From Luteolibacter flavescens (GTDB taxonomy: Bacteria > Verrucomicrobiota > Verrucomicrobiia > Verrucomicrobiales > Akkermansiaceae), in the NCBI RefSeq assembly GCF_025950085.1, contig NZ_JAPDDS010000006.1, positions 248,001 through 312,000 on the forward strand: a stretch of DNA of 64,000 bases, given 5' to 3'. The notes beneath the pieces are model-generated. The model was not told the DNA's origin and ran no database searches. It saw only the letters and a list, made by a program, of their open reading frames with translations. Both the position numbers and the translations under genes were made by a program. Of the stretch, positions 28,612-37,563 are shown piece by piece (the first letter of the stretch is position 1; every line of letters starts with the position of its first letter).

Positions 28612-29526
28612 TCACACGTGCGGAGGACCGGCATGGGCCGGCTCCTCCGGCGGCAGGCGTTTCCGCAGCCGGTGGACGATCAGCGGGTGCAGCAGGTTTG
28701 CCAGCAGGATGGTCGCCATGCCCGCGTAGAAGAGCGGGTGGAGCCCCTTGTGCTCGCCGAAGAAAAGCGCCGCCGCGATGATCCCGTAGAGCGGCTCGAA
28801 ATTGAACGCCAGATTCATCGTGTAGGCGCTCAGGTGCCGCAGCAGCGTGATGTGAAAGCCGTGGGCGAAGATCGTGCACACCCACGCGAGCAGCAGCAGC
28901 CACAGCCAGTCATACCCCTGCCAGGCGAAGAGCGACACGCCGCCGCTGGTGAAGGGGAAGAGCACCAGGCCCGCTGTGAAGGCACCGACCATTTCCCACG
29001 CGACCATCGTCGTCGGGTCGCTGCCGCCCGTGACGAAGCGGCGGTTCAGCACCGGGAAGACGGAGGCGAGGAAGGCGCTGATCAGCGCCACGCCGAGCCC
29101 GAGCAAGTGCTCCCGCCCGACGAAGCCCGCGACCAGCCCGATGCCCGCCACCACCAGCAGCCCCAGCAGCACCTCGAATGGGCGCACCCGCCGCTTCTCC
29201 AGGAAGGGCTCGGTGAATGCCGTGAAGAGCGAGATGGTCGCCATGCCCGCCAGGCAGACCGAGATATTCGACAGCTTGATCGCGCCGAAGAAGCAGATCC
29301 AGTGCAGCCCCACGATGAAGCCGATGCCGAGGAAGGCGAGCGCCGCCCGCCTGCCCGGCCACAGTGGCCGCCGCCGCACCAGCCCCACCCAAGCCGCCGC
29401 CCCCACCGCCGCAAAGAGCGTCCGCCAGATCACCAGCGTCGCCGCTGGCAACGAAATCAGCTCCCCCAGGATCGCCGTGGTCGCAAGCAGCAGGACAAGC
29501 AGGTGGAGCTGGAGGTAGTGTTTCAC
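28612..29526 (-). CDS. EamA/DMT-family drug-metabolite transporter
   Basis: A 304-residue inner-membrane protein with ten predicted hydrophobic helices in two repeats of five, the EamA (formerly DUF6) layout. Examples are LLVLLLATTAILGELISLPA and FIVGLHWICFFGAIKLSNIS in the first repeat and FAHGFHITLLRHLSAYTMN in the second. Such transporters export metabolites or amino acids; the substrate is not predictable here. It converges on the giant TPR gene with only 19 bp between the stops, and its promoter side faces the AT-rich NACHT gene region. Confidence 0.9.
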   Translation of the reverse strand: MKHYLQLHLLVLLLATTAILGELISLPAATLVIWRTLFAAVGAAAWVGLVRRRPLWPGRRAALAFLGIGFIVGLHWICFFGAIKLSNISVCLAGMATISLFTAFTEPFLEKRRVRPFEVLLGLLVVAGIGLVAGFVGREHLLGLGVALISAFLASVFPVLNRRFVTGGSDPTTMVAWEMVGAFTAGLVLFPFTSGGVSLFAWQGYDWLWLLLLAWVCTIFAHGFHITLLRHLSAYTMNLAFNFEPLYGIIAAALFFGEHKGLHPLFYAGMATILLANLLHPLIVHRLRKRLPPEEPAHAGPPHV

Positions 29527-29599
29527 TGGTGCGGGGCACCGAGGCTTGAACGCAGGAGGACGAAAGGCCAGCTTATGCTTGAGAGGTAGAACTGCTAGT

Positions 29600-29621
29600 C
29601 CGAATCGACGAGTCCGTTCGG
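29600..29621. other. short hairpin in the region upstream of the NACHT gene
   Basis: CCGAA (29600-29604) and TTCGG (29617-29621) form a 5-bp stem, and GAGTCCG occurs twice nearby (29610-29616 and 29621-29627). This is in the 297-bp gap between the EamA transporter and the NACHT gene. It may mark an old junction, but the evidence is weak. Confidence 0.2.
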
Positions 29622-29695
29622 AGTCCGTAATTTGGGAACAGCGCGAAATGATTTACTAGTCGAAATGCTATCTTTGGAAAAGCTTCATCGAAAGC

Positions 29696-29723
29696 TTGCC
29701 GTGTGGCTCATACCTCTTAACAT
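29696..29723 (+). promoter_or_regulatory. putative sigma70-like promoter of the NACHT gene
   Basis: TTGCCG (29696-29701) and TAACAT (29718-29723) are separated by 16 bp and lie 101 bp before the ATG at 29824. They match -35 and -10 hexamers only partly. A hairpin (CCTCCC / GGGAGG, 29740-29761) lies between this site and the start codon and could affect leader structure. Confidence 0.3.
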
Positions 29724-29739
29724 CTGATTAACAGGGTCG

Positions 29740-29761
29740 CCTCCCTCGGTTGTCCGGGAGG
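29740..29761 (+). other. leader hairpin upstream of the NACHT start
   Basis: A 6-bp stem CCTCCC / GGGAGG with a 10-nt loop sits 63 bp before the ATG. There is no adjacent U-tract. It could be part of the 5' untranslated region of the NACHT gene or a junction remnant. Confidence 0.25.
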
Positions 29762-29823
29762 TGCCGGGATGCCCTTCTTACGTCTGCTTCAACCTCTTTC
29801 GAGAAAATTTGCTAAAAAAATAC

Positions 29824-32800
29824 ATGATGAAAAATCCCTTGCCCATACGACTCTTGGGACGATCAAGCAATGAAAGCGGTGATTTGTTCACACGGTTGGT
29901 GAGAGATCTATTCTTTAGCTTAGGATATGACAATTTACAGCTTGATGTTGCGACTTCCGGGCGAGAGGTGGATCTTCAGGGTAATCATCGCTTTGAAAAT
30001 AGGCGTTTTGCAGCGGAATGCAAAGCCCATGCTAATGTTATTGGTGGAGGGGATTTGAACAAGTTTCTGGGCGTGCTTACACGCGAGCGTACAAGGCACG
30101 CACCGCTATCTGTTGCTGGTTATTTTGTCTCGTTGAGCGGATTCACTGGTTCTGGTATTAAACAAGAAGAGGATAGTGGTAACGAGGGTCTGATTTTATT
30201 CGATGGATCTAAGGTGGTTGACGAACTTCAGCGGGCTCGAGTGATTGTTCAGAAAGAATCTGCAACAGAATTTGCAGGCCGTTGTGTTGCGGCGAATGGG
30301 CTGCGTGGCGTGCAATTTGAGAAGGCTGAGGTAGTCTGCTATTCGGCAGGGTATTTGTGGGCTGTCTATTATTCTCGTGGAAAAAATTTAAGCCATTTTG
30401 TTTTTATTCATGCGGATGGAACTCCCCTTGCTAAATCAGTGGCCGCATCGGTGATTGATGCCGATAAAAATAGCGGTGGAATTATGTGTTCTCTATCTTA
30501 TGTGGCTCCTCCGGAGGAATTGGATCTGAGTGATTTGCGTGAAGATGCCTTCAATCAGTATAAAAAATGGCTTGGAGAGGAGTGTGGTTATATTCAGTTG
30601 GATGGTTTGCCTGCAGATAGTGACTTGAGTGCTACAAAACTTCGGCTCGAAAGGCTTTTCGTTCCACTGAGAGCGACTTATAAGAAGCAAGCCGCTGATC
30701 GAAATAAGATAGGGTTGTTTAGTGTTGGTCTAAGTGGTATTTTTGTTGATGATGTTCCTGTTGATGAAGATGAAATTGATAAATACGAAGAGGTTGATGA
30801 GTTGGACTTTATTGATGATGAGGTTGAGTCGGGTGTAGTGGTTGAGCCAATTGGGGATTTACTGTCGAGGGAGTCGCATGTGGCTGTGTTGGCCAGTCCA
30901 GGAGGTGGTAAGAGCACGCTTGTAAAGAGGCTGGCAACGGCATACTCATTTCCGGATCGTAGACTTGAAGTTGCAGATGGGTTGCCTGAACGTGATTGGT
31001 TGCCGCTTTATCTGCGGTGTCGTGATCTGAGGGATAGGTCTAACCGTCCCGTTCTGGAATTATTGCATGGGATCTCTGCATTCGCCAACATGAAGGACGA
31101 CATGGCGAAGTGCTTTCGAGATGGGGTGAGTGATGCATTACGAGCGGGGAAGGTTCTTTTGTTGGTAGACGGACTCGATGAAATTTCCGAGGAAGGGTCC
31201 CGACGGGCCTTTGCGCAAAATTTACGAACGTTTGTTGCAATGTTTCCTGGCGTGATGCTTGTAGTCACTTCAAGAGTTGCCGGGTTCCGAGATATTGCTG
31301 GGGTAATCGCTGGAACATGCCAGCAGATCACGCTCGCGCCATTGGACGGCGAAGATGTGAGGCGGCTTTGTGTAAGTTGGCATTCTGAAGTAGTTGCTGA
31401 TACGGAACATGTGCGTCGGGAGGCTTCGGAGCTTGCGGATGTTATATGGGGTAATCGGCATATTCGAAGTTTGGTCGAAAACCCCCTTCTTCTAACAACG
31501 TTGCTGGTTGTTAAGCGTTCAAATGGTGAGATTCCTCCATCTCGGGCAGAACTTTACTCCGAAGCGGTTCGGGTGCTGGTGAGGACTTGGAACGTTGAGG
31601 GATATGCTCCCCTTGATGAGCGGGAAACTCTCGCGAGGCTGTCTTACGTTGCTTGTGCTATGATGCAGAGAGGTATTCAGCTTATTGGAAATGTTGCTCT
31701 TATTGGTCTGTTGAATGATGCAGCGAGAGAGATGGAGCCGGAACTGCAGTTCGCCAAGGTTTCGCCGAGTGAGTTCATTCAGCGAATTGAGTATAGAAGT
31801 AGCCTGCTCATGCAGACGGGTTATCAGCGCCTGGAAGGGGAGTTGCAACCCGTATACGAATTTAGGCACTTGACGTTTCAGGAATATCTAGCGGCAAAAG
31901 GCTTTGTCTCTGAGCAGTATCCCGGTCGTAATGATGAGGCACCTCTAGTCGAGGTCTTGTCACCTCATTTGGAAGATGAGCGCTGGCAAGAGGTGATTCC
32001 TCTTGCCTCGGTTCTAGCCGGACGAAAAGCTGAAGCCGTTATAAGAAGGATTTTGAGGGAATGCTCCTCTGAAGAGGCGGGTCAAGAGGCGGAGATTAGA
32101 AGTCGACCGAAGGCGTCTGTGAAATTACTTGGGCAATGCATCCTTGAGGAGGTTACTCTTACTCCGGGGGCTCTGAGGGCTGCATTGGTAGAGATATCGC
32201 TGAAGCTTGGGAGGGGCAGGCCATCTCTAGTTTTGGAGTCGATATTTAACGGTAAATTCGGGGGTGCGCTAAAAGCTACGGTTCAAGAGTGCTATTTTTC
32301 GATGGGTGATAACTGGACGTATTTTGAGTCTGCCCTTAGTGAGATATTTCGATTTGAGATCAAGAGGTCTAGGTCTGAGTTGCTGGACCGTGAATTTGTC
32401 GGAGATCTTGTCGGTGATTTGATTGCAGGTAACAGAGAGGTTAAGGTTCGCTGTGCTTTGCTTTTGATGCAGACCGCATTTGAATGTCGAGAAAGCGAGG
32501 CGAAGACGGCTGAAGTATTAACGCCTTTCGCTCAGGATATTCTTGGAGGTCTCCTAGAGATGCTCCATTCCGGGGACCTGCCGAGTGCCCAATCCGCCTC
32601 GTGGTCGCTCGCTTGGCTTGGCCACAGCGGAATCTGGCCTGCGCCGACGTCGTTAGAATTGATTCAAAGGCTGTTTCACATCTGGCGCCATGAAAGCGCG
32701 ACTGAGCTTGTCAGGAAAGCTGCATGGGCTTTCTATAGTCAGCCTCTTTTTCCAAGGGATTCTATTGCTGACGAGTTTTGGGGCGCGTGTGATCCATGGC

Positions 32801-33021
32801 ATGAACGTCAATGGGATGAATCAGCACAGGGAGCTAGGTGTGTGGCAGCGATAACACTTGGTTGGTACCGTCGATCACCTTGGAGTGACGAAAAGTTGGT
32901 GGAAATGATTGTGCAATCCCAAGCTCATGGAAGTCTGCTTCCGAAGAATATTCGTTATATGCTTTCTTCGCTTGGTGAGGCTGGGAATCGGGTTGTTAAA
33001 AGTTGGGATAAGAAAAAATGA
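29824..33021 (+). CDS. bacterial NLR-like protein: Mrr-like nuclease - NACHT - helical C-terminus
   Basis: A 1065-residue protein; start at ATG 29824, as the earlier frame is not coding-like. Residues 10-105 look like an Mrr-type PD-(D/E)xK nuclease: Glu17 in the first helix, GREVDL with Asp50, and AECKA with Glu65 and Lys67. About 105-300 is unassigned. An acidic linker follows (about 309-338, Asp/Glu-rich). The NACHT ATPase begins near 350: Walker A ASPGGGKST with Lys363, Walker B VLLLVDGLDEIS (444-455), TSRVAGF, and FRHLTFQEYLAAKGF near 680. The last about 330 residues are helical. In characterised bNACHT/Avs proteins the NACHT module oligomerises on sensing phage and activates the N-terminal effector. 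DNA is visibly AT-rich compared with neighbours, indicating transfer. Confidence 0.92.
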   Translation: MMKNPLPIRLLGRSSNESGDLFTRLVRDLFFSLGYDNLQLDVATSGREVDLQGNHRFENRRFAAECKAHANVIGGGDLNKFLGVLTRERTRHAPLSVAGYFVSLSGFTGSGIKQEEDSGNEGLILFDGSKVVDELQRARVIVQKESATEFAGRCVAANGLRGVQFEKAEVVCYSAGYLWAVYYSRGKNLSHFVFIHADGTPLAKSVAASVIDADKNSGGIMCSLSYVAPPEELDLSDLREDAFNQYKKWLGEECGYIQLDGLPADSDLSATKLRLERLFVPLRATYKKQAADRNKIGLFSVGLSGIFVDDVPVDEDEIDKYEEVDELDFIDDEVESGVVVEPIGDLLSRESHVAVLASPGGGKSTLVKRLATAYSFPDRRLEVADGLPERDWLPLYLRCRDLRDRSNRPVLELLHGISAFANMKDDMAKCFRDGVSDALRAGKVLLLVDGLDEISEEGSRRAFAQNLRTFVAMFPGVMLVVTSRVAGFRDIAGVIAGTCQQITLAPLDGEDVRRLCVSWHSEVVADTEHVRREASELADVIWGNRHIRSLVENPLLLTTLLVVKRSNGEIPPSRAELYSEAVRVLVRTWNVEGYAPLDERETLARLSYVACAMMQRGIQLIGNVALIGLLNDAAREMEPELQFAKVSPSEFIQRIEYRSSLLMQTGYQRLEGELQPVYEFRHLTFQEYLAAKGFVSEQYPGRNDEAPLVEVLSPHLEDERWQEVIPLASVLAGRKAEAVIRRILRECSSEEAGQEAEIRSRPKASVKLLGQCILEEVTLTPGALRAALVEISLKLGRGRPSLVLESIFNGKFGGALKATVQECYFSMGDNWTYFESALSEIFRFEIKRSRSELLDREFVGDLVGDLIAGNREVKVRCALLLMQTAFECRESEAKTAEVLTPFAQDILGGLLEMLHSGDLPSAQSASWSLAWLGHSGIWPAPTSLELIQRLFHIWRHESATELVRKAAWAFYSQPLFPRDSIADEFWGACDPWHERQWDESAQGARCVAAITLGWYRRSPWSDEKLVEMIVQSQAHGSLLPKNIRYMLSSLGEAGNRVVKSWDKKK

Positions 33022-33095
33022 ATTTTATTTATTGAGGATTAATTTGTTAGTGATGGGCGATAGAATCCTTCGGTTGATGCCGTGTTTGGTGGACT

Positions 33096-33134
33096 AAAAA
33101 AGACAGGAAGGCAGGAATTAATCTGCCTTTCCTG
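33096..33134 (-). terminator. intrinsic terminator of lysA, between convergent genes
   Basis: CAGGAAGGCAG (33104-33114) pairs with CTGCCTTTCCTG (33123-33134), an 11-bp stem with one bulged T and an 8-nt loop. Read on the minus strand it is followed by TCTTTTTT, so it can terminate lysA transcription. On the plus strand the same hairpin also lies after the NACHT gene but without a strong U-tract. Confidence 0.8.
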
Positions 33135-33163
33135 CCTTTGAGTTTCGCTCGTTTCGTTGTCGA

Positions 33164-34450
33164 TCAGCCTTCCCCCGCGATGATATCCTCAAGCGTCTGG
33201 CGCTTGCGGATGACGCGGGCGCTGTCGCCGTCGACGAGGATCTCGGCGGGCATGGGGCGGGAGTTGTAGTTCGAGGCCATGGCGAAGCCGTAGGCTCCGG
33301 CGCTGAGCAGGGCGACGGTCTCGCCGGGCTGGAAGTCCGGGAGCTCGCGGTCCTGGCAGAAGAAGTCGCCGCTTTCGCAGATGGGGCCGACGACGTCCAC
33401 CTTGCGGGTTTCGCCGGTGGGCTCCTTGAGCGGGGCGATCTCGTGGTGGCCTTCGTAGAGGGCGGGGCGGATGAGGTCATTCATGCCGGCGTCCACGACC
33501 TTGAAGGTCTTCGCCTTGCCGCGCTTCTCGTAGAGGCACTTGGTGAGCAGCACGCCGGCATTCCCCACGATGAGGCGGCCGGGCTCGAGCAGGATCTTCA
33601 GGCCGAGATTCTCCAGGCGCGGGACGAGGGCCTCGCCGTACTGGGCGATGGTCAGCGGGCGCTCGCCCTCCGGCTTGCCCTCCCACCAGCCGGTGTCGCC
33701 GGAGTCCAGCGAGCCGTGATAGACGATGCCGATGCCGCCGCCGATGGACCAGAACTCGATGCCGTGGGTGACCTTCAGGTGGGTGGCCAGCGGGGCGACC
33801 TTTTCCACGGCCTCGATGAAGGGCTGGATGGAGGTGAGCTGCGAGCCGATGTGCATCTGCAGGCCGCGGAGCTTCACGTGCGCCAGCTCCTTCGCGGCGC
33901 GGGCGTAGAGGTCGCTGATGGCATCGAAGTCGACGCCGAACTTGTTCTCGGACTTGCCGGTGGAGATGTACTTGTGGGTCTTCGCGTCCACGTTCGGATT
34001 CACGCGCACGGCGGCCGGGGCGATGACGCCGAGGTCGGCGGCCACTTCATTCAGGTAGCGCAGCTCTTCCTCGCTCTCGACATTGAAGGAGTAGATGCCC
34101 TGCTGGAGCGCGTACTCGATCTCCGCGCGGGTCTTGCCCACGCCGGCGAAGGTGCACTTGGCCGGGTCGCCGCCCGCCTTGATCACGCGGAAAAGCTCGC
34201 CGCCGGAGACGATGTCAAAGCCGGCGTGCTCGTCCACGAGCAGCTTCAGCACGGAGAGATTCGAGTTTGCCTTTACGGCGTAGGCCACCTCGTGGTCGAT
34301 CGCGCCGAGCGCGGCATCGAGCCTGCGGTAGTGGTCGCGGATCGTGTTTGCGGAGTAGACGTAGAGCGGGGTGCCGTGCTCGTCGGCGAGGGTCTGGAGA
34401 TTGACATCCTCGCAGTGGAGCGAGCCATGGCGGTAGGCGAATCCGTGCAT
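33164..34450 (-). CDS. lysA: diaminopimelate decarboxylase
   Basis: A 428-residue PLP enzyme catalysing the last step of lysine synthesis, meso-diaminopimelate to lysine. Residues include the PLP-linked Lys60 (AYAVKANSN), the SGGELFRVIKAGGDP turn, LHMHIGSQL-like (LRGLQMHIGSQLTSI) segment, and the C-terminal CESGDFFCQDRELP motif that gives the catalytic Cys from the partner subunit. Length is normal. Its terminator lies at 33096-33134. The promoter region is shared with the divergent secretin-like operon across 215 bp. Confidence 0.95.
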   Translation of the reverse strand: MHGFAYRHGSLHCEDVNLQTLADEHGTPLYVYSANTIRDHYRRLDAALGAIDHEVAYAVKANSNLSVLKLLVDEHAGFDIVSGGELFRVIKAGGDPAKCTFAGVGKTRAEIEYALQQGIYSFNVESEEELRYLNEVAADLGVIAPAAVRVNPNVDAKTHKYISTGKSENKFGVDFDAISDLYARAAKELAHVKLRGLQMHIGSQLTSIQPFIEAVEKVAPLATHLKVTHGIEFWSIGGGIGIVYHGSLDSGDTGWWEGKPEGERPLTIAQYGEALVPRLENLGLKILLEPGRLIVGNAGVLLTKCLYEKRGKAKTFKVVDAGMNDLIRPALYEGHHEIAPLKEPTGETRKVDVVGPICESGDFFCQDRELPDFQPGETVALLSAGAYGFAMASNYNSRPMPAEILVDGDSARVIRKRQTLEDIIAGEG

Positions 34451-34665: not shown

Positions 34666-35439
34666 ATGCTATCTCCCTCCTTTCGATGTGTGCTGGCCGG
34701 TGCGTGGATGATTTTGACCCCGGGCGCAGTGTTCGCCCAAGAGGCGACGCCGGAATTCGATCCGCTCGGTGAAAACGTGGATCTGCCCCGGCAGGTGCGG
34801 GTGCAGGCGGAATTCATCGAGGTCTCGCACGAGACGCTGACGAAGCTGCTGCTGAAGCCCCGCGAGGGCGCGGACGACAGCGCTCTCCGCCAGGACCTGG
34901 CGAAGCTGACCGAGGAGGGAAAGGCGACCGTGGTGGAGACGATGCTGTGTATCGCCCGCAGCGGGGAGAAGGCCCTGACCGAGTCGATCAAGGAATTCAT
35001 CTACCCGACGGAGTACGAGCCCGCGGAGATTCCGAACGAGATCCACACGACGGAGAGCGGCGAGAAGGTGAAGACCGATGGCAAGGATCACGCCACCGGC
35101 CCCACGCCGACTTCCTTCGAGGCGCGCAATCTGGGCTCGACCTTGGAGATCGAGCCGACGCTCTCGGGGAACGGGAAGATCATCGACCTGCGGATCGCGC
35201 CGGAGATCGTCTATCACGTGGGGAATGAGACGTGGGCGGAGTGGAAGGGGAAGTACGGCGATGCCTCCGTCCGCATGCCTACGATGTACACACTGCGTTT
35301 CACGACCGCGGCGACCTTGATGGACGGGCAGCCCCTCTTCGTCGCGGCGCTGTCGCCGAAGGGCGAGGATGGCTTCCCGGACTTCAAGCGGAAGCTGATG
35401 GTCTTCATCCGCTGCGATGTGCTCACCGTGGGCCGCTGA
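34666..35439 (+). CDS. secretin-core protein, paralog 1 of 4
   Basis: A 257-residue exported protein (signal peptide about 1-24, ending VFAQE). It is the most divergent of four tandem paralogs. Conserved blocks are VRVQAEFIEVSHETLTKLL, KATVVETMLCIARSGEKAL, FIYPTEYEPAEIP, then GSTLEIEPTLSGNGKIIDLRI and a last strand VFIRCDVLTV. This order (EV-strand, the alternation of vET and PTEYEP strands, GTTLEIEPT, then a closing strand) is that of the secretin C-domain (type II/III secretion and pilus outer-membrane pores), here without N0-N3 domains and too short for a pore by itself. Secretin relation is inferred by pattern; see the finding. Confidence 0.8.
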   Translation: MLSPSFRCVLAGAWMILTPGAVFAQEATPEFDPLGENVDLPRQVRVQAEFIEVSHETLTKLLLKPREGADDSALRQDLAKLTEEGKATVVETMLCIARSGEKALTESIKEFIYPTEYEPAEIPNEIHTTESGEKVKTDGKDHATGPTPTSFEARNLGSTLEIEPTLSGNGKIIDLRIAPEIVYHVGNETWAEWKGKYGDASVRMPTMYTLRFTTAATLMDGQPLFVAALSPKGEDGFPDFKRKLMVFIRCDVLTVGR

Positions 35440-35451
35440 CCGCCGCCGGCC

Positions 35452-36156
35452 ATGAAGAGGATGCTATTCATGACCCTGCTCGCGCTGCCGGCGATGGCCG
35501 TGGCGCATCAGGAAGCGCCGCGCCAGTTGCGCGTGATGGTGCAGGTCATCGAGGTGCCGCATGCGGTGCTGACGAAGTGGAACAGCGCGGGCATCGTGAA
35601 AGGTGCGGATCTTCACGAAAGCGCTGTGAAGCTGGTGGAGACTGGCGAGGCGCAGATTGTGGAGACGAGCGTGGTGATCGCCCGGACGGGTGAGAAAGCG
35701 CTGGTGGAGACGATCGGGGAGCGGATTTATCCGACGGAGTATGAGCCTCCCGAGCTTCCCACCAACGTCGGAATCACTCCCGTGGATCCGGCTTTTAAGC
35801 TCCCCGATTTCACTCTGGCTCATCGGATGACTTCCTCATGGGAGACCCGTGATACGGGCTCCTCGATGGAAGTGGCGCCGCTGATCGATGAGGGGGAAAC
35901 GTATTACCTGAACCTCCGTTTCAATATGGTTGATCTCCCGGCTTTGACCCTGTGGTCGGAGTTTGTCGATGAACTTGGAGACGCCTCGGTCCGGATGCCT
36001 GAGTTTGAGACGAGGAGATGGACCGGCGCGCTCACGTTGGCCCCCGGCGTCTTCGAGCTATGCACCGTCTTCACCCCGAAGCCCGCGGCGGTGCCTGCCG
36101 CCACGACCCGGCAGATGGTCTTCGCCCGATGCGAGGTGCTGTCGTGGGACAAGTGA
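35452..36156 (+). CDS. secretin-core protein, paralog 2 of 4
   Basis: A 234-residue exported protein (signal peptide MKRMLFMTLLALPAMAVA). Blocks: LRVMVQVIEVPHAVLTKWN, AQIVETSVVIARTGEKALV, ERIYPTEYEPPELP, the GSSMEVAPL strand, and a C-terminus ending FTPKPAAVPAATTRQMVFA. It lies 12 bp after paralog 1 and 9 bp before paralog 3. Paralogs 2, 3 and 4 share a nearly identical stretch near their 3' ends, so part of the array was copied or converted recently. Same inferred secretin-core function. Confidence 0.8.
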   Translation: MKRMLFMTLLALPAMAVAHQEAPRQLRVMVQVIEVPHAVLTKWNSAGIVKGADLHESAVKLVETGEAQIVETSVVIARTGEKALVETIGERIYPTEYEPPELPTNVGITPVDPAFKLPDFTLAHRMTSSWETRDTGSSMEVAPLIDEGETYYLNLRFNMVDLPALTLWSEFVDELGDASVRMPEFETRRWTGALTLAPGVFELCTVFTPKPAAVPAATTRQMVFARCEVLSWDK

Positions 36157-36165
36157 CCGATTGCG

Positions 36166-36864
36166 ATGATGAAGCGCGCCGCTGTCCTCTCCCTGCTGGC
36201 CCTCGCGACAAGCGCGATGGCCGGGCAGACCCGTGTGACCGTGCAAGTCATCGAGGTGCCACATGCGGAGCTGACGAAGTGGATGTCCTCCGGAAAAGCA
36301 AGCGGTGAAGAGCTTCACGAGCGAGCGATGAAGCTGGCGTCGTCCGGTGCGGCGGAGATCGTGGACACGAATGTGGTCCTCGCCCGGAGTGGGGAGAAGG
36401 CTTTGGTGGAATCGATCGCCGAGGTTATTTTTCCTACCGAGTATGAGGGGTCGGACATGGCTGCTCCTGCAAAGGAGCCTTTGGTCTTCGATCCCAATGC
36501 TCCATTTTCTCCCAGACCTTGGCCGAACTTGTTTGCCAATGCGTTCGAGACCCGGAACGCGGGGACGACGATTGAAATCGAAGCGACACTCTCGGAGAGC
36601 GGGAAACACGTCGATCTAAGGCTCTCCTTTGAGATGGTGGATCAGGACTCTCTGATGACGTGGACGGAGTATCGTGACCAATGGGGCGAGGCCTCGATCA
36701 AACGGCCCATTTTCGAAACGAAACGCCTGACGGGTGCGCTGACTCTGGTGTCCGGGAAATTCGAGCTCTTCAACATCTTCACTCCGAAGCCCGCGGCGAT
36801 GCCTGCCGCCACGACGCGGCAGATGGTCTTCGTGCGATGTGAGGTGCTGCCACTGGCCAAGTAA
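36166..36864 (+). CDS. secretin-core protein, paralog 3 of 4
   Basis: A 232-residue exported protein (MMKRAAVLSLLALATSAMA, then QTRVTVQVIEVPHAELTKW). Blocks: AAEIVDTNVVLARSGEKALV, AEVIFPTEYEGSDM, FETRNAGTTIEIEATLSES, KRPIFETKRLTGALTLVSG, and FTPKPAAMPAATTRQMVFV. Nine bp separate it from paralog 4. It is closest to paralog 4, especially in the KRPIFETKRL and FELFNIFTPKPAA blocks. Confidence 0.8.
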   Translation: MMKRAAVLSLLALATSAMAGQTRVTVQVIEVPHAELTKWMSSGKASGEELHERAMKLASSGAAEIVDTNVVLARSGEKALVESIAEVIFPTEYEGSDMAAPAKEPLVFDPNAPFSPRPWPNLFANAFETRNAGTTIEIEATLSESGKHVDLRLSFEMVDQDSLMTWTEYRDQWGEASIKRPIFETKRLTGALTLVSGKFELFNIFTPKPAAMPAATTRQMVFVRCEVLPLAK

Positions 36865-36873
36865 CCGATTGTC

Positions 36874-37563
36874 ATGACGAAACGTGCTGCTTTCCTTTTC
36901 ATGCTGGCCCTCGCGACAAGCGCGGTGGCCCAGCATGTTCGCGTGATGCTCCAGGTCATCGAGGTGCCGCATGCCGAACTGACGAAGTGGACGACTGCGG
37001 ATAAAGCAGGCGGTCAGGAGCTTCATGAGCGGGCGATGACGCTTGTCTCGTCCGGAGGTGCTGAGATCGTGGAGACGAGTGTCGTCATCTGCCGCAGTGG
37101 AGAAAGGGCTTTCGTTGAATCGATTGCCGAGATGATCTATCCCACGGAGTATGAACCCTCCAGCATGGGAGGCTCGATGGTGCCCCTTGACTCCAAACTA
37201 GTGATACCTGTTCCCCTGAGGCCGACCGACTGTGTGTCGTTCGAGACCAGGAACGCCGGGACGACCTTGGAAATCGAGCCGACCATCGGGGGTGGCGGCA
37301 AAATTGTGGACCTGAGGTTGGCCTTCGAGTCCGTAAGTCGTGAATCGCTGGTGACCTGGACGGAGTTCCGTGACCAATGGGGCGACGCTTCGATCAAGCG
37401 GCCCATCTTCGAGACCAAGCGCCTGTCGAGCGCGCTGACGTTGCTGGCCGGGAAATTCGAGCTCTTCAACATCTTCACCCCGAAGCCCGCGGCAGTGCCT
37501 GCGGCGACGACCCGCCAGCTCGTCTTCGTGAAGGCGGACGTATTACCCCATCCGAACGAATGA
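36874..37563 (+). CDS. secretin-core protein, paralog 4 of 4
   Basis: A 229-residue exported protein. After a signal peptide (MTKRAAFLFMLALATSAVA), residues follow: VRVMLQVIEVPHAELTKW, AEIVETSVVICRSGERAFV, EMIYPTEYEPSSM, FETRNAGTTLEIEPTIGGG and KIVDLRLAFESVS, then the PIFETKRLSSALTLLAGK block and TTRQLVFVKADVL. The stop codon TGA overlaps the ATG of the VIT protein (ATGA), so translation is coupled. This is the copy in which the resemblance to secretin consensus strands is clearest. Confidence 0.8.
   Translation: MTKRAAFLFMLALATSAVAQHVRVMLQVIEVPHAELTKWTTADKAGGQELHERAMTLVSSGGAEIVETSVVICRSGERAFVESIAEMIYPTEYEPSSMGGSMVPLDSKLVIPVPLRPTDCVSFETRNAGTTLEIEPTIGGGGKIVDLRLAFESVSRESLVTWTEFRDQWGDASIKRPIFETKRLSSALTLLAGKFELFNIFTPKPAAVPAATTRQLVFVKADVLPHPNE

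Follow-up and report, generated by a model that had tools for sequence, protein, structure and literature searches.

What is the function of the AT-rich gene that stands alone between an EamA transporter gene and lysA in Luteolibacter flavescens, and how did it arrive there? The window analyzed here is a stretch of 64,000 nucleotides of contig NZ_JAPDDS010000006.1, in which positions 29,527–33,163 form the entire gap between the EamA and lysA open reading frames (ORFs). The sole gene inside this gap, at 29,824–33,021 on the plus strand, encodes a protein of 1065 amino acids (P0001) that joins an Mrr-type nuclease domain to a NACHT NTPase (Mrr-NACHT). By analogy with described systems, P0001 is most probably a horizontally acquired single-gene bacterial NOD-like receptor (NLR), that is, an anti-phage receptor of the bNACHT type among the signal transduction ATPases with numerous domains (STAND), armed with a DNA-cutting effector. 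This reading builds on an intact gene, its domains, invariant residues, a fast-changing C-terminus, an exchangeable effector unit, absence of the gene from congeners and defense genes beside lysA in two of them. The initial annotation had also proposed an acquired Mrr-nuclease-NACHT gene, and the Mrr_cat match above cut-off, the NACHT domain, the low GC content and the absence of the gene beside lysA in all 15 congeners compared argue for this proposal.

Gene integrity and composition

The P0001 ORF is intact, with an ATG at 29,824, a stop codon at 33,019–33,021 and 1065 open codons, in agreement with the one 1065-residue gene first annotated between EamA and lysA. This single-gene cargo was delimited from ORF calls and a 38-member family alignment. 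Its coding sequence has a GC content of 0.484. Measured from the earliest start at 29,761, the ORF has a third-position GC (GC3) of 0.436 and a window-based codon adaptation index (CAI) of 0.336. The comparison set comprised the other 38 ORFs in the window that reach 150 amino acids; these are longest-ORF calls, not every one of them a true gene. Their GC averages 0.639 (standard deviation 0.038, minimum 0.548), with minima of 0.595 for GC3 and 0.454 for CAI. The P0001 ORF lies below all 38 in each of these measures, bearing out the earlier remark that it is AT-richer than every neighbor. Among the relatives described below, the Mrr-NACHT gene has a lower GC content than its flanks in 22/29 and a higher one in 5/29 (rounded values, no correction for kinship).

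Domain architecture of P0001

All regions of P0001 are encoded on the plus strand. The N-terminus carries a predicted PD-(D/E)xK nuclease domain, matched by Pfam Mrr_cat at residues 18–133 (29,875–30,222; E 1.3e-6, 28.9 bits, cut-off 21). The proposed catalytic residues Asp50, Glu65 and Lys67 are invariant in 38/38 family members, which supports the nuclease first suggested from them; its extent, given as the first 105 residues, has to be moved out to residue 133. An unnamed linker domain follows at residues 134–240 (30,223–30,543); among the loci fetched, it is confined to Mrr-bearing ones, apart from a single copy truncated at the end of a contig. The pre-NACHT linker at residues 241–345 (30,544–30,858) is common to SIR2-NACHT and other relatives. 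It includes the acidic stretch 309–338 that had been noticed earlier; the most acidic 30-mer of P0001 begins at residue 309, with 16 Asp or Glu.

The NACHT NTPase (PF05729) was matched by Pfam at residues 354–522 (30,883–31,389; E 2.4e-10, 40.9 bits, cut-off 26.7). Walker A, PGGGKST, occupies residues 359–365, and Walker B, LLLVDGLDE, residues 445–453; the initial annotation rightly called this domain intact from Lys363 and VDGLDE. Mrr_cat and NACHT were each detected in 38/38 members by Pfam. Besides the nuclease residues, G360, G362, K363, D449, D452, E453 and H682 are invariant in 38/38. In the family alignment, H682 lies within EFRHLTFQEYLAA of a post-NACHT region at residues 526–740 (31,399–32,043).

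The C-terminal region, residues 741–1065 (32,044–33,018), is the fastest-diverging part and a putative sensor. It had been described as lacking recognizable repeats, a view that no longer holds, as the family profile of this region resembles ARM/HEAT proteins. At E ≤ 0.1, 106 PDB sequences match the profile, and the best 60 of these are headed by a synthetic fusion protein (1.3e-9), Vac8 (2.1e-9) and engineered repeats, followed by many importins alpha. A full-length family profile matched 7 PDB sequences at E ≤ 0.01, mostly ARM proteins (best 1.9e-4), and P0001 by itself matched no PDB sequence at E ≤ 1. An ARM/HEAT-like fold and a sensor role for residues 741–1065 are therefore predicted as plausible.

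A family with conserved core and divergent C-terminus

A pattern search of genome contigs with P0001 alone returned no relative, and a two-row alignment with an Agrobacterium SIR2-NACHT protein was used instead. The relatives are the best 80 of 203 from genome contigs, 3 from viral contigs and the Agrobacterium locus (L042), so counts among them are no census. From these 84 loci (L042, L045–L127), 37 Mrr relatives and P0001 entered the family alignment A2 (38 rows) and 32 others alignment A3. Fifteen broken, truncated, shorter or distant loci were excluded (L054, L057, L064, L065, L073, L083, L085, L088, L092, L098, L105, L106, L110, L116 and L127); L051, kept in the family set, lacks about 20 N-terminal residues.

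Open Mrr-NACHT proteins, 30–51% identical to P0001, are thus carried by 37/84 relative loci, and local matches of the more distant ones end short of the P0001 C-terminus. Their records are labeled Planctomycetota, Chlorobiota, Acidobacteriota, Pseudomonadota, Thermodesulfobacteriota, Myxococcota, Bacteroidota, Actinomycetota, Bacillota and others, as well as archaea (ANME-1, Methanosarcinales, Bathyarchaeota) and one viral contig (L125). Since many relatives come from short contigs of metagenome bins, single host labels, archaeal ones among them, may be wrong. Mean identity to P0001 is 50% for residues 1–133, 36% for 134–240, 38% for 241–345, 51% for 346–525, 52% for 526–740 and 22% for 741–1065. 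Conserved machine parts with a fast-changing C-terminus form the pattern expected of a receptor with a diversifying sensor.

Within its own phylum, a protein search matched 8/288 genomes including its own, the other 7 only inside residues 322–742. The nuclease profile matched 11/276 genomes, with frames outside the own genome of 182–355 amino acids, too short for a NACHT fusion. A second NACHT match above the Pfam cut-off was observed in the own genome (G000:C8:254949-255344, L002; 30.5 bits, 571-amino-acid frame).

An exchangeable effector on a common chassis

P0001 and the SIR2-NACHT protein of L042 are homologous over residues 243–1029 of P0001, with 30% identity. The 32 relatives without Mrr carry, by Pfam counts, SIR2_2 (17), Metallophos (6), TIR_2 (6) and wHTH-HSP90_Na-assoc (7). 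A quick tree was built from 70 NACHT regions, midpoint-rooted and with Shimodaira–Hasegawa-like approximate likelihood-ratio support only; in it, 17 rows including L042 grouped on a single branch (support 100). The Mrr label required 3 changes on this tree vs 23.3 in shuffles; the long-branched Lokiarchaeal L108, which has no Mrr, was placed among Mrr rows. The motif LHxHG is present in 16/17 rows of the SIR2 branch. Of the N-termini in this branch, one was compared with solved structures, that of a SIR2-NACHT protein from Enterobacter mori (L089:5071-5994); it matched FAM118B (1.5e-22) above a USG protein (7.2e-8) and ThsA (1.7e-5).

Profiles of the separate regions were then compared across the frames of 147 loci. 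These loci had been fetched via NACHT motifs or as relatives, a sampling that would miss the linker outside NACHT proteins. The 134–245 profile was present in 51 frames (repeat copies of the window gene at L001, L006 and L135 included), 48 of which also had the nuclease profile. Of the remaining three, L085 is at a contig end, and L098 and L106 have the nuclease in a separate frame just upstream. Conversely, 28 frames had the 241–345 and NACHT profiles with neither the nuclease nor the 134–245 profile, and one of these frames, L092, is a fragment of a disrupted Mrr copy. The C-terminal profile was found in 15/17 SIR2-branch loci and in 4/6 loci with a metallophosphatase-like motif. Because of this co-occurrence, residues 1–240 behave as one exchangeable effector unit and residue 241 onward as the chassis.

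A further idea, which we put forward tentatively and hold to be rather doubtful, is that linker 134–240 is an undescribed regulatory domain of the nuclease that clamps Mrr until NACHT assembly. In both bacteria and archaea, nuclease and clamp might then be swapped together, as a single cartridge, onto a shared NACHT-ARM/HEAT chassis whose other effectors are SIR2 or metallophosphatase.

The lysA-EamA gap in congeners

Full-length lysA was found in 15/17 congeners, and the Mrr-NACHT gene is absent beside it in all 15. EamA directly adjoins lysA in 8/15, with 2–162 bp between aligned ends, so that the junction, which the initial annotation had singled out for comparison in relatives, is empty in 8. 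Other genes lie between lysA and EamA in 4/15 (L128, L130, L131 and L133), and in 3/15 (L129, L132 and L134) no EamA occurs within the 14–18.5 kb read. In L129, a homologue of the window's 2732-amino-acid ORF immediately follows lysA.

Two congeners carry defense genes here. L130:1493-3656 (genome G293) holds a low-GC pair between lysA and EamA (gap GC 0.515), comprising a TIR protein (ThsB model, 2e-39) and a 271-amino-acid protein without Pfam or PADLOC match; the pair is possibly an undescribed two-gene defense system. L132:1675-17559 (genome G296) holds a BREX-like cluster near lysA, whose scanned genes, PglX and PglZ, were matched in PADLOC, with two low-GC genes (0.46 and 0.47) at its lysA end. 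The TIR gene between lysA and EamA in L130 and the BREX genes beside lysA in L132 lend support to the gap as a slot for defense genes. In L128 (16,192–16,350, genome G288), a stretch about 1.2 kb past the lysA end matches LysA residues 374–425 with 47% identity, perhaps a trace of an older event.

The neighbors of the family were examined in 29/37 relatives of A2, with up to two nearest ORFs per side and ORFs of at least 1500 amino acids dropped. No recurrent partner was found among these 109 proteins, the commonest Pfam family occurring in 3/109 at E ≤ 1e-10. Because no neighbor family recurs, P0001, if functional, probably acts as one gene.

Comparison with known systems

bNACHT25 and bNACHT32 are described as a PD-(D/E)XK DNase with NACHT and NCH1 (PMC12169576). 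The substitution D48A in their PD-(D/E)XK domain abolishes defense and DNA degradation, bNACHT H506L is stimulus-independent, and sensing is indirect and requires DnaJ (PMC12169576). P0001 resembles them in its N-terminal PD-(D/E)XK domain, in the similar placement of the essential Asp (D48 there, D50 here) and in the central NACHT. H506 and H682 may be counterparts, and by analogy with bNACHT25 (PMC12169576) we infer an off-state role for H682. The bNACHT25/32 proteins (clade 6) differ by their NCH1: PF22728 was unmatched by P0001 at E ≤ 1 and by the 38 members at E ≤ 0.001 (12 families matched), in a comparison made by description, not by sequence, and run without a positive control. Searches for NCH2 in 194 genomes and for NCH1 in the own genome gave no match, with controls equally silent, and thus show no absence. 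NA-iREase1 had no match in the own genome, while 5/14 controls matched. The central NACHT of bNACHT proteins is found in 38/38 members, and their N-terminal effector corresponds to Mrr_cat in P0001. The latter argues against placement in clade 14, which has a SNaCT domain and no readily discernible effector.

The exchange of effectors also has precedents. STAND proteins with C-terminal repeats are known in which SIR2 or Mrr_cat takes the place of TIR as the effector (PMC9122126). The Mrr_cat-STAND proteins of the P4-satellite hotspot share with P0001, by description, the Mrr_cat effector, the STAND NTPase, the C-terminal repeats and an interchange among TIR, SIR2 and nuclease. WP_173993517.1, the SIR2-NACHT protein of Agrobacterium plasmid pAt2788a (L042), has SIR2_2 in place of P0001 residues 1–240. 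DS-8 combines a NACHT receptor with an N-terminal metallophosphatase, both required for phage defense (PMC13092281); likened by its description, it has an N-terminal enzyme as P0001 does, but a different one; Metallophos is carried by 6/32 of the non-Mrr relatives. Avs1–Avs4 (AVAST) are reported to recognize terminase, portal or Ksap1 and cleave phage and host genomes (PMC12931631). They resemble P0001 as nuclease-armed antiviral STAND receptors. No Avs model was among the PADLOC matches of P0001 (2 families) or of the 38 members (6 families). Avs proteins have tetratricopeptide-repeat sensors and are larger.

None of Pfam, PADLOC 2.0.0 and NCBIfam 20.0 provides a named family specific to P0001. 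Three PDC-S02 models of PADLOC match 8, 5 and 2 of the 38 members and PDC-S60 matches 3 (best 6.6e-8); among the 32 non-Mrr relatives, PDC-S60 matches 6 (best 1.2e-30) and HEAT-ARM_XIII matches 8. Because of the PDC-S02 and PDC-S60 matches, the PADLOC candidate list touches this neighborhood without naming the Mrr-NACHT family. EruA (NCBIfam NF058535) was rejected as a name for P0001, with 34.8 bits vs a curated cut-off of 1000 and the best stretch on profile positions 55–208 of 1318. All 38 members match this model below E 0.001, as expected because the NACHT region is shared, and our literature search found no paper on EruA in phage defense. It likewise found no account of the Mrr-NACHT family, its linker or the slot; the family may be one clade of Kibby et al. 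2023. Phage records gave no match to P0001 at 1e-5. In protein mode, 72 plasmid records matched P0001, none covering more than 80% of the query, and its first 332 residues matched 2, both weakly; in DNA mode, no plasmid record matched the gene. The suggestion that the variant may be new thus stands for the family name and falls for the design, since nuclease-NACHT (PMC12169576) and Mrr_cat-STAND (PMC9122126) proteins have already been published. P0001 is a new family member, not a new mechanism, as receptors of this kind are already known.

Proposed mechanism and alternatives

In the mechanism that we propose, the ARM/HEAT-like C-terminus would detect either a protein of the phage or some change that the phage causes in its host. 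The ADP-held NACHT module, restrained partly by the post-NACHT region with H682, would then exchange its nucleotide and oligomerize, and the clustered N-termini would activate the Mrr-type PD-(D/E)xK domain. This domain would cut phage DNA, and probably host DNA too, so that the infected cell would be sacrificed and the phage kept from spreading. Sensing, oligomerization, nuclease activity and abortive infection are ascribed to P0001 by analogy.

Several observations weigh against an acquired anti-phage receptor. Defense genes lie beside lysA in only 2/15 congeners, and L132 has no EamA within the 18 kb read, so that it speaks for the lysA side of the slot only. The cargo of L128, L131 and L133 looks ordinary, judged mostly by eye; in the scan of these three, three L128 proteins had no Pfam match and one of those no PADLOC match either. 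Neighbor proteins of the relatives matched AriA (2) and AbiEi, GajB and others (1 each) among the best 25 of 98 PADLOC families, in a scan without control, and we claim no defense-island enrichment from it. P0001 matched nothing in PADLOC at E ≤ 0.001, the nearest being mad8 (0.0016) and PDC-S02 (0.067). The nuclease profile had no PDB match at E ≤ 0.1, and the linker profile only two, at E 0.51 and 0.84. For most ARM/HEAT chains among the best 60 of 106 matches, no single stretch passes by itself, and repeat profiles may score through composition.

Instead of a suicide receptor triggered by phage, P0001 could be an Mrr enzyme similar to type IV restriction systems, with the NACHT ATPase as its gate, that targets plasmids, or foreign or modified DNA, directly. 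Mrr_cat belongs to the restriction-endonuclease domains, 3/38 members match the PADLOC model mREase_IV (best 6.4e-6), and the nuclease profile also finds Mrr-type frames of 182–355 amino acids in ten other genomes of the phylum. However, SIR2 and metallophosphatase effectors sit on the NACHT chassis as well, which makes nuclease-bound DNA an improbable trigger, and 11 stand-alone Mrr frames (L136–L146) lack the linker profile; we consider this restriction-like role unlikely. A STAND regulator outside defense, or an acquired gene decaying into inactivity, seems very improbable. Mrr-NACHT copies are indeed split by stops or frameshifts in 8/84 relative loci (L054, L057, L073, L088, L092, L098, L105 and L106), some perhaps through draft assembly errors, whereas the window copy is open over its whole length and keeps every family-invariant residue checked.

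Flanking features

The left border of the slot is the EamA transporter gene (28,612–29,526, minus strand) and the right border is lysA (33,164–34,450, minus strand), both defined by the ORF list and congener comparison and named as in the initial annotation. The two borders share no direct or inverted repeat of 14 nt or longer; shorter duplications would escape this search. A terminator-like hairpin lies downstream of lysA at 33,108–33,129 on the minus strand, from a consensus scan that found 4 sites vs 3.7 expected in shuffles. An inverted repeat like it, judged by eye, is also present 3' of lysA in L130. A tRNA-Ser(gga) called by ARAGORN at 31,938–32,032 was taken as a false positive because it falls within the coding sequence and Rfam gave no match at E ≤ 1 across 29,000–34,000. 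Beyond lysA, four successive ORFs at 34,666–37,563 (257, 234, 232 and 229 amino acids) look like paralogues by eye.

Conclusions

Herein, the AT-rich gene beside lysA most probably adds an acquired single-gene receptor to a family open to testing, whose single receptor chassis is combined with different effector enzymes across several bacterial phyla and records labeled as archaea. The lysA-EamA gap in Luteolibacter is a place to look for more defense genes.

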